From Deltaproteobacteria bacterium (GTDB lineage: Bacteria > Myxococcota_A > Polyangia > Polyangiales > JADJMO01), in NCBI GenBank assembly GCA_022843175.1, contig JALHOE010000063.1, positions 1 to 41,727 on the forward strand: a stretch of DNA of 41,727 bases, written 5' to 3'. The translations under genes were made by a program, and so were the position numbers. Each line of letters opens with the position of its first letter. Position 1 is the stretch's first letter. This document shows positions 19,501 to 33,740 of the stretch, piece by piece. The notes under the pieces are model-generated. The model was given only the letters and a program-made list of their open reading frames with translations. It did not search any database and had not been told where the DNA came from.

Positions 19501-19508
19501 CTAGTGCC

Positions 19509-19528
19509 GGGCGGCGGAGGTTCCGCCC
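19509..19528 (+). terminator. Weak hairpin after carH
   Basis: GGGCGG (19509-19514) can pair with CCGCCC (19523-19528) across an eight-base loop, nine bases after the carH stop. There is no T-run, so any terminator role is doubtful. Confidence 0.25.
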
Positions 19529-19552
19529 GTGGTCGTGCACGTCATCCGTGGT

Positions 19553-19583
19553 CGTGAGCGGGCACGGGCACGGGCACGGGCTC
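19553..19583 (+). repeat. Left inverted-repeat arm with three GGGCAC hexamers
   Basis: GGGCAC is repeated at 19560-19565, 19566-19571 and 19572-19577, then GGGCTC. Bases 19562-19577 pair perfectly with 20005-20020, and the pairing extends to 19553/20029 with one mismatch. An 11-base direct repeat, CCGTGGTCGTG (19527 and 19546), lies just upstream. Confidence 0.75.
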
Positions 19584-19644
19584 GATTGGCTCGCGCTTCA
19601 GCTGCGCACGCAACCGTCCCCCGTTTGGGCGTCGATACGTCCGC

Positions 19645-19998
19645 ATGACGGAACGCCCGCTCCTCGATCACGAGAACCTCGACGCGTACCGCGTCGCCGT
19701 CGAATTCCTCGCGCTCGCCCTCGCGGTACTCGACGACCTGCCGCGGCAACGGCGGGAGCTTCGGTCACAGCTCGAACGCGCCGCGATGTCGATTCCGCTC
19801 AACCTCGCCGAGGGCACCGGGAAGCCGTCGGCAGCGGATCGCGCGCGCTACTACGCGACGGCGCGCGGCAGCGCGCTGGAGTGTGGCGCGGCTCTCGACG
19901 TCTGCGCACTGCTCGGACACGCATCGGCTGAGCAGCTCGATCGAGGCAAGCGCATGCTGAGTCGAATCGTGGCCATGCTTACCCGAATGTGCCGGTGA
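19645..19998 (+). CDS. Four-helix-bundle protein (S23 / intervening-sequence family)
   Basis: The product has 117 residues and is all helical. It shows the family pattern: LDAYRVAVEFLALAL, then SQLERAAMSIPLNLAEGTGK (the conserved SIP-N-AEG core), then YYATARGSALECGAAL (the conserved A-GS-E). Such proteins are encoded in 23S rRNA intervening sequences and, as Avd, accompany diversity-generating retroelements; they form pentameric barrels that bind nucleic acid. No reverse transcriptase or rRNA is in this window. The gene lies exactly between long inverted repeats. The ribosome site is poor. The function of free-standing members is unknown. Confidence 0.88.
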   Translation: MTERPLLDHENLDAYRVAVEFLALALAVLDDLPRQRRELRSQLERAAMSIPLNLAEGTGKPSAADRARYYATARGSALECGAALDVCALLGHASAEQLDRGKRMLSRIVAMLTRMCR

Positions 19999-20004
19999 GG
20001 CCTC

Positions 20005-20058
20005 GTGCCCGTGCCCGTGCACGCTCACGTGCCCGTGCACGCGGACGAGCACGCCCAC
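20005..20058 (+). repeat. Right inverted-repeat arm, nine hexamer units
   Basis: The bases break into hexamers GTGCCC, GTGCCC, GTGCAC, GCTCAC, GTGCCC, GTGCAC, GCGGAC, GAGCAC and GCCCAC, the first ones perfect complements of the left-arm GGGCAC units. The array begins seven bases after the stop of the four-helix-bundle gene. Confidence 0.75.
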
Positions 20059-20095
20059 GAGTCAGAACCTCTGGCCAGATTTCCGCCGAGCGGCA

Positions 20096-20929
20096 CTACG
20101 CCTGCGGCTCCAGGCGGTCGGTGGGGATCCAGTGCTCCTGACCGTCGGGGAACGTCACGAGGCAACCCGTCGCGCGCACCGTGGCTGGGTACTTCTGTCC
20201 GTCGGTCCACACCACCTGCACCGTCGCGCCCGGCGCGAAGCCCGTTGGCTGAGGCGGCGGCTCCTCGACGGACGGCGGCGGCGGGTCGGTGATGGTGTTG
20301 ACCCGCACCTCGATTTTGGGGAGCTCGATCGCCGCGAATGTGTCGCGCTCCGAGTCGCCGGTCCACGCGGCGAGCACGTCCTTCTTGAGCGCATCCACCA
20401 TCTTCGACGACTGCAGGCTGGTGAGGTAGCGATCGCCGGCGAGGGTGTCGCGCACCTTCGACTCGAAGAGCTCGCGCACCTTCGCGCGCACGCGCGCCGA
20501 CAGCGCCACAACGTCGAGGTCCTCGGACTGCCACACCACGAAGTCGGACGGCTCGTCGATCCGCACGCGCACGGTGCCGCGCACGACGATCTTCGCCTTG
20601 TTGGCCTTGGTGTCCTCCATGACCCCGAGGTCCTCGTCGAGCGCGAGGTCGAGGCCATCGTCGTGGATGAACCAGCCGCCCTCGAGCTCTTCGCCGACGT
20701 TATGGCTCCCCGGCTCGAGGATGACGTCGCAGCTCCCGAATCGCAGCCCGAAGAACTTGTCGCGCTCGCCCACGTTGATCAGGCTGCCGGCGGGGATCCC
20801 GCCGTGGACCCGCGACGCGAACGGGCTGCCGCTGCCGCGCGCGAGCGTTCGCCGCGTCGGCATCGGTGAGCCGCACGTCCCGCAGAACTTCCCGTCGCCC
20901 TCGGCGCCACACTTCCCGCAGACCACCAT
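20096..20929 (-). CDS. Zinc-ribbon, SPFH-like protein with C-terminal Tudor/SH3-like domain
   Basis: The product has 277 residues. An N-terminal zinc ribbon (C4, C7, C16, C19: CGKCGAEGDGKFCGTCG) is followed by a Ser/Arg-rich linker. A beta-rich then helical core spans about 40-205 (SLINVGERDKFFGLRFG, KIVVRGTVRVRIDEPSDF, ARVRAKVRELFESKVRDTL), whose order resembles SPFH/virion-core-like proteins. Then come a Pro-rich linker and a small barrel (GATVQVVWTDGQKYPATVRATG..., ~232-277) of the Tudor/SH3 type. There is no signal peptide. It lies 30 bases downstream of the radical SAM gene's stop-side neighbour, on the same strand but transcribed after it, so the two may share a transcript. Function unknown. 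Confidence 0.65.
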   Translation of the reverse strand: MVVCGKCGAEGDGKFCGTCGSPMPTRRTLARGSGSPFASRVHGGIPAGSLINVGERDKFFGLRFGSCDVILEPGSHNVGEELEGGWFIHDDGLDLALDEDLGVMEDTKANKAKIVVRGTVRVRIDEPSDFVVWQSEDLDVVALSARVRAKVRELFESKVRDTLAGDRYLTSLQSSKMVDALKKDVLAAWTGDSERDTFAAIELPKIEVRVNTITDPPPPSVEEPPPQPTGFAPGATVQVVWTDGQKYPATVRATGCLVTFPDGQEHWIPTDRLEPQA

Positions 20930-32948: not shown

Positions 32949-33740
32949 CTAGCGGCAGACGCCGTAGCCGCCGAAGGTGATGCGGCACGTGGTGCCGAAG
33001 CGGCACTCGGCGTTCGACGCGCAGAGCTGCACGCCGGCGCAGAACAGCTGGCAGGTGGCGGTGGGCGTGCCGCCGCCGAGGCCCGCGAAGCAGCAGATGC
33101 GCGGAGCGGGGCAGCTCGCGGAGCTCGAGCAGCCGAGCGTGGTGCCGCCGCCGCAGGTGCCCTTCTTGACGCACGAGACGCCGGTGAAGCTCGCGCAGCA
33201 GTCCTCGGTGGCCGCGCTGCAGAACTCGGAGCCGCAGAGGATGCCGCCCTCCGGCGGCGGACCGTCGGGCGCGGTATCGAACGCCGTATCGAACACGCCG
33301 GTGTCGAAGCCGACGCTGGTGTCGAAGCCGACGCTCGTATCGAAGCCGACGCTGGTGTCGAAGCCGACGCTGGTGTCGAAGCCGACGCTCGTATCGAAGC
33401 CGACGCTGGTGTCGAAGCCCACGCTCGTGTCGAAGGTGACCGAGGTGTCGAACGTGCCGGTGTCGAACTCGATGAACGTGTCGGGGCCGATGCTGGTGTC
33501 GAACTCGACGAACGTGTCGGGGAACGACGTGTCGAACTCGCCGGCCGTGTCGAACTCGCCGGCCGTGTCGAACGACGAATCGAGCTCACCGGCGGTGTCG
33601 CTGGCGGCGGTGTCCGAGGTGGTGTCGGTGTCGACCGAGCCGTCTCCGCCGAAGTCGAAATCGCCGAGGCCGCCGCGACCGCAACCGGCGGACAGGACGA
33701 GCAGGGCAACCGCAGCGGCTCGGAGGATGGGGCGCGACAC
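32949..33740 (-). CDS. Lipoprotein with hexapeptide (FDTSVG) tandem repeats and Cys-rich C-terminus
   Basis: The product has 263 residues from a GTG start; the signal ends LVLSAGC. Residues ~30-165 are low-complexity repeats of the pattern (E/F)DTSxx, seven of which are near-perfect GFDTSV units encoded by an 18-bp tandem repeat at 33301-33426. The regular Asp-Thr spacing could bind calcium or form an extended stalk. The last ~95 residues hold 14 or more cysteines (CGSEFCSAATEDCC, CVKKGTCGGGTTLGC, CPAPRICC), a disulfide-rich head seen in many myxobacterial surface proteins. It looks like a stalk-and-head surface lipoprotein of unknown binding partner. It diverges from the hydrolase gene at 33802. 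Confidence 0.75.
   Translation of the reverse strand: MSRPILRAAAVALLVLSAGCGRGGLGDFDFGGDGSVDTDTTSDTAASDTAGELDSSFDTAGEFDTAGEFDTSFPDTFVEFDTSIGPDTFIEFDTGTFDTSVTFDTSVGFDTSVGFDTSVGFDTSVGFDTSVGFDTSVGFDTSVGFDTGVFDTAFDTAPDGPPPEGGILCGSEFCSAATEDCCASFTGVSCVKKGTCGGGTTLGCSSSASCPAPRICCFAGLGGGTPTATCQLFCAGVQLCASNAECRFGTTCRITFGGYGVCR
33301..33426 (+). repeat. 18-bp tandem repeat, seven units, with 54-bp higher-order copy
   Basis: Units of the form GTGTCGAAGCCGACGCTG run seven times. Units 1-3 (33301-33354) are identical to units 4-6 (33355-33408), including the variant ends CTC and GTA, so a 54-bp block was duplicated recently. Each unit encodes six residues, so copy-number change keeps the frame. Confidence 0.9.

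Follow-up and report, generated by a model that had tools for sequence, protein, structure and literature searches.

A gene of the S23 family in the window, the 41,727-nucleotide stretch of DNA that was analysed, occupies the loop of a long hairpin and is enclosed by an outer pair of terminal inverted repeats (TIRs), the whole forming an element of 593 bp (19504-20096). The reading that we favour, with moderate confidence, is that this locus is one copy of a class of S23-encoding, MITE-like hairpin transposable elements, of which the intervening sequences (IVSs) of rRNA genes look like special cases. The evidence comes from the build of the element, from its dispersed copies and empty sites, and from the recurrence of the same design around S23 genes in other genomes.

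Structure of the window element and its protein

The left TIR GTGCCGGGCGGCGGAGGTTCCGCC (19504-19527, plus strand) has the conserved start (GTRCCGGGCGGCGGAGG..) of the dispersed copies; the right TIR is GGCCAGATTTCCGCCGAGCGGCAC (20073-20096, minus strand), and the two match at 17 of 24 positions. A TA lies directly outside each TIR, at 19502-19503 and at 20097-20098 (neither assigned to a strand), and the left one, given the TA enrichment at left ends of the family, is a putative target duplication. Within the TIRs, the left arm (19529-19585, plus strand) is built around a (GGGCAC)n array at 19553-19578, whose length differs between copies, and the right arm (20003-20059, minus strand), the complement of the left, around a (GTGCCC)n array at 20004-20029. 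These cores of 26 nt each are 96% complementary and 425 nt apart, which recovers to within one base the arms that the initial annotation had placed at 19553-19577 and 20005-20029, with the gene in the loop. The extent of 19524-20062 given there was right as to the gene-in-hairpin arrangement and too narrow as to the element: the pairing extends outward as far as the outer inverted-repeat pair with TA outside it, which had been missed, and the element is therefore a little wider. The RNA of 19503-20099 is predicted to fold at -321.6 kcal/mol (z = -4.7), with none of 100 shuffled sequences as stable.

No Rfam family was matched in a scan of the whole window, which is therefore without rRNA, so that the IVS-like architecture described earlier does stand outside rRNA and between protein genes. 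As in an IVS, the termini of the element are complementary and would pair into a stem that encloses an S23 ORF, and the element is not positioned inside a 23S or 16S rRNA gene. It likewise has the TIRs and the multiple dispersed copies, many of them internally deleted, that characterise a MITE, and it is not a protein-less sequence moved by a related transposase, in that it encodes an intact S23 gene.

The S23 gene runs on the plus strand from an ATG at 19645 to a TGA at 19998, encodes 117 aa, and is the only ORF with a known domain found within the element. Its product matches the profiles PF05635 (S23 / 23S rRNA IVP; E=7e-20, 71.7 bits vs a cut-off of 33.8) and TIGR02436 (E=6e-18), and the AlphaFold2 model is a confident four-helix bundle (pLDDT 96.5), for which Foldseek returned 2gsc (XCC0516; TM 0.89) and 2rld as the closest structures, followed by Avd of the diversity-generating retroelement (DGR) of the Bordetella phage (4dwl/8ub7; TM about 0.75). 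The sequence search also found 2gsc (E=1.4e-15). A profile score above the curated cut-off together with a four-helix-bundle fold places the protein in PF05635, in agreement with the family that had been proposed from the sequence. Residues S49, E56 and E79 are invariant and could be structural, and the protein is without known catalytic motif. Values of dN/dS of 0.02-0.28 between S23 gene pairs indicate purifying selection on the gene where intact pairs could be compared. In searches of plasmid and phage collections, the window protein had no relative at E<1e-5.

Dispersed copies, empty sites and co-variation of the arms

Other copies, which the initial annotation had proposed to look for, are present in the window's own genome (9.75 Mb, 470 contigs): we found 22 protein matches and, at unrelated sites, about 18 copies at the DNA level in which at least one element end is retained. 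Most of these are without part of the gene, and the window copy has the only intact ORF of the subfamily seen. At three unrelated sites (L083 on contig C393, L086 on C75 and L091 on C231) the copies have one common deletion junction, CAACCGTCGCACCG, and a defective derivative has therefore multiplied; four further copies (L088, L089, L090 and L084) carry other deletions. Judged by these sequences, the family includes MITE-like derivatives that have wholly or partly lost the gene and yet still multiplied. TA precedes 6 of 12 intact left ends in this family vs a background of 0.8%, and several left ends adjoin a TAG stop codon within CTAG. A TA on both sides was found only in the window copy and L094, and CA/TG occurs in others. 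Searches of the own assembly with the TIRs recovered only S23-family copies and chance-level matches, and revealed no autonomous, transposase-carrying element that shares these TIRs.

The same genome has hairpins of the form (GTGCCC)n - short loop - (GGGCAC)n with apparently unrelated loops and without an S23 gene, and a complete genome, G015, has a comparable set of hairpins, made up of the arms of the S23 element that lies between rpoD and tRNA-Ile in that genome. The hairpins at L258-L263 of the own genome are of this kind, with polarity opposite to that of the window arms, and apparently occupy intergenic spacers. A second palindromic repeat family, GTAGGCGCGCGCGTCAGCGAGCGCCTA-like, was seen beside the S23 copies L082, L088, L095, L098 and L015 in the own genome, and the S23 gene at L015 is flanked by an inverted pair of these repeats.

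The orthologous site of the window was compared in one congeneric genome, G001, where both window flanking genes lie close together with an unrelated gene between them and the element is absent; a search of relatives for empty sites had been proposed in the initial annotation. G002 and G004 were rejected as matches for this site since the gene neighbourhood is broken there. In another genus, G015 and G030 share the orthologous element between rpoD and tRNA-Ile, and this site is empty in their congener G035 as well as in G006, G039, G025 and G048. The arms of this element are 96% and 90% complementary within the two species, and between the species they have only 65-67% identity, with indels. 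Sequence comparison thus indicates that the arms co-evolve while the arm sequence drifts; such co-variation can also be the product of a mutational process, quasi-palindrome correction, with no selection acting on the structure. Conservation in one place in all relatives, a single copy and arms that do not co-vary had been named as signs against a mobile element; none of them was found, the co-variation coming from this orthologous pair in another genus.

Two further sites, L209 in G015 and L247 in G030, were rejected as clean empty sites after base-level reading showed the palindromic remnants GCGTCACGC and GAACGACCGTGCACGGCTGTTC, and they were therefore dropped as proof of insertion; the short palindromic remnants at these two sites are as compatible with loss as with gain. 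At L344 (G030) and L349 (G015), fused arm ends were seen where the relative has the full hairpin element, and these palindromic remnants could be excision or deletion scars.

Movement of a related element was seen in the 4-Mb Oligoflexia MAG Co_bin.49, where three copies at unrelated loci share 553-589 bp at 98-99%, and at least 21 distinct insertions with different flanks end in GTGAGTACAGGCCCTA, from which one copy differs by a single base. TA is present at the sharp right terminus that is common to all 21 insertions. In two copies the left end is the inverted right end, starting TAGGGCC, and at L274 and L278 the left end is without TA. The near-identical copies hold no recognisable gene other than S23. 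So many insertions (at least 21) of one S23-only element, nearly identical in sequence, in a single MAG mean that the element class moves and, together with the own-genome copies and the absence in the congener, they uphold the earlier proposal of a mobile or selfish element. Larger S23 elements, with 0.7-1.2 kb of homology and unrelated flanks, are dispersed in G006, G030, G053, G025 and G088.

Inverted arrays around S23 genes in other genomes

Among 60 PF05635 loci from 19 genomes of the order, where loci of the same genome are not independent and units differ between genomes, 59 have an array within 1 kb of the S23 gene. Tandem repeats make up 26.8% of bases at up to 500 bp from the gene vs 2-4% at 2-10 kb, and repeats with 6-bp-multiple units 19% near the gene vs about 1% farther out. 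The repeat unit varies by locus while both flanks of one locus match, the inverted k-mer score between left and right flanks being 22 within a locus vs 2.2 between genomes. Inverted arrays, such as AGTCGTC/GACGACT, TCGTAC/GTACGA and CGGGGT/ACCCCG, are found at many of the one-gene loci; at the convergent two-gene S23 loci of G008 and G053 the arrays are direct. At L134, L138 and L142 (G008, G085), each element carries two convergent S23 genes, the Shine-Dalgarno sequence of each gene is buried in a near-perfect upstream hairpin, and L134 and L138 have apparent compensatory changes. The buried Shine-Dalgarno sequences and the compensatory changes suggest translational self-control of S23.

A scan of named genomes yielded 80 relatives, 66 of which had enough flank for an arm test in which 120 displaced positions of the same locus served as control and their 95th percentile as threshold. 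Inverted arms exceeded this threshold at 61 of the 66 loci (median score 24.8 vs 9.5). Going by their record titles, these loci come from lineages such as Myxococcota, Desulfobacterota, Acidobacteriota, Planctomycetota, Verrucomicrobiota, Oligoflexia, Gammaproteobacteria (Thiosymbion), Gemmatimonadota and Sumerlaeota. Most arms are 6-bp periodic (lag-6 identity 0.69 vs 0.30 in controls), and a few loci, such as L286 and L300, have arms that are not arrays. An Rfam scan of 60 related loci found no rRNA at any of them, and only two had any match, a tRNA about 1 kb or more from the gene. Taken over the genomes scanned, the gene-in-hairpin design recurs outside rRNA in at least nine bacterial phyla. 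In a search of largely open-access literature, no earlier account was found of S23 accompanied by arrays or inverted repeats at sites other than rRNA.

Relation to known elements and possible modes of movement

IVSs with an S23p ORF, the setting from which the protein was mainly known before, occur in 23S and 16S rRNA, as in Coxiella and Leptospira (PMC4990558, PMC11270868). The Coxiella IVS has a 28-bp stem, is excised by RNase III and carries heptamer repeats before the ORF, and the study concluded that its S23p is probably not made in vivo (PMC4990558), which counts against the reading favoured here. The window element is like rRNA IVSs in that a long hairpin with complementary termini holds, in its loop, a gene for a protein of that family, and the heptamer repeats adjoining the Coxiella ORF are a further likeness; unlike them, it lies between protein genes and has many dispersed copies, TIRs and hexamer-array arms, whereas the Coxiella IVS is inherited vertically and its ORF is decaying. 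MITEs are defined by TIRs with TA ends and by stable stem-loops (PMC5896051). With bacterial MITEs the window element shares shortness, intergenic position, TIRs, terminal TA, predicted stem-loop transcripts and internally deleted derivatives, but it differs in its conserved protein gene and inverted-tandem-array arms, and a parent transposase was not found in the assembly. Correia- and nemis-type elements are bacterial MITEs. In REP/BIME systems with RAYT (TnpA-REP), intergenic palindromes are apparently tied to one small gene family, which is a likeness to the present case; S23 differs in being without the HUH/Y1 nuclease fold, and the arms here are hexamer arrays. The DGR protein Avd (PDB 4dwl, 8ub7) has the same fold as S23, with only 8-10% identity to the window protein. 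In a DGR a reverse transcriptase with template/variable repeats lies beside the Avd gene; between the arms here neither such a repeat pair nor a reverse transcriptase was seen, S23 being the sole recognisable ORF.

Under the favoured reading, an element consists of outer TIRs, inverted arms of short tandem repeats and an S23 loop gene as its sole recognisable ORF; it would insert at TA, as bacterial MITEs do, and would probably move via a recombinase acting in trans. S23, a presumably pentamer-forming relative of Avd, would bind the stem and act as a factor, encoded by the element itself, for its propagation or maintenance. The IVSs of 23S and 16S rRNA would be members whose insertion into rRNA was tolerable, the hairpin being cut out by RNase III. 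As to the earlier suggestion of an RNA that is cut and bound by its own protein, the hairpin could instead be active as DNA, either as a cruciform or in single-stranded form.

Chance proximity, with hexamer arrays abundant in GC-rich genomes and S23 genes near them by accident, finds some room in the arrays without S23 of the own genome; it is refuted by the steep fall of array density with distance from the S23 gene, by the matching of units on both flanks and by the displaced controls, and its probability is negligible. A role of S23 as mere cargo, with a host or unrelated function, in a TIR hairpin moved by a TA-target (IS630/Tc1-mariner-like) transposase is possible, if not what we expect. 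Terminal TA and TIRs occur in two unrelated genomes, S23-less deletion derivatives propagate, and the published definition of MITEs (PMC5896051) fits; but S23 recurs in the hairpin architecture across many phyla and under purifying selection, which is unexpected for a random passenger, and the ends of other S23 families are quite different, with no TA seen there.

We hold to be doubtful a mobility driven by S23 itself, in which the protein would attach to the hairpin in its single-stranded or extruded cruciform state and, aided by host factors of replication and repair, would move or preserve it. The short palindromic remnants of relatives would then result from deletions through the stem. The fused arm ends at 'empty' sites, the lack of any recognisable gene besides S23 in the near-identical Oligoflexia copies and the occurrence of non-autonomous array hairpins alongside S23 copies in the same genomes are consistent with this, against which stand the lack of a known catalytic motif and invariant residues that could be structural. 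Improbable in our estimate is an element copied through RNA, whose transcript would fold, be cut by RNase III, be bound by S23 and be copied back by a reverse transcriptase in trans in the manner of Avd and DGRs: the Avd fold match, which includes DGR ribonucleoprotein structures, the RNase III excision in Coxiella (PMC4990558) and the strong RNA fold of the window element are in its favour, but the TIR/TA ends point to DNA transposition chemistry. A bolder reading, which we put forward tentatively and think unlikely as a whole, is that S23, as a pentameric four-helix protein, is the self-encoded mobility factor of a widespread class of transposons for which no recombinase is known: it would recognise hairpins whose arms are inverted hexamer arrays, would move or preserve these hairpins, and would stand at the origin of the rRNA IVSs.

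The S23/IVP family is still termed functionally uncharacterised (PMC11270868), and a genome-wide class of genes in hairpins addresses both its function and the origin of rRNA IVSs. The near-identical copies and co-varying arms offer a candidate IVS source and testable substrates, a cognate arm with its S23, and the comparison suggests that the rRNA insertions came from S23 hairpin elements outside rRNA. A figure legend of a large clustering screen names 23S rRNA IVP among CRISPR-array-associated proteins (PMC10910872); because the arms described here are tandem arrays, S23-flanking arrays mistaken for CRISPRs may explain the association. Elsewhere in the window, at 33281-33600, long imperfect tandem repeats with a period of 18/54 overlap long ORFs.
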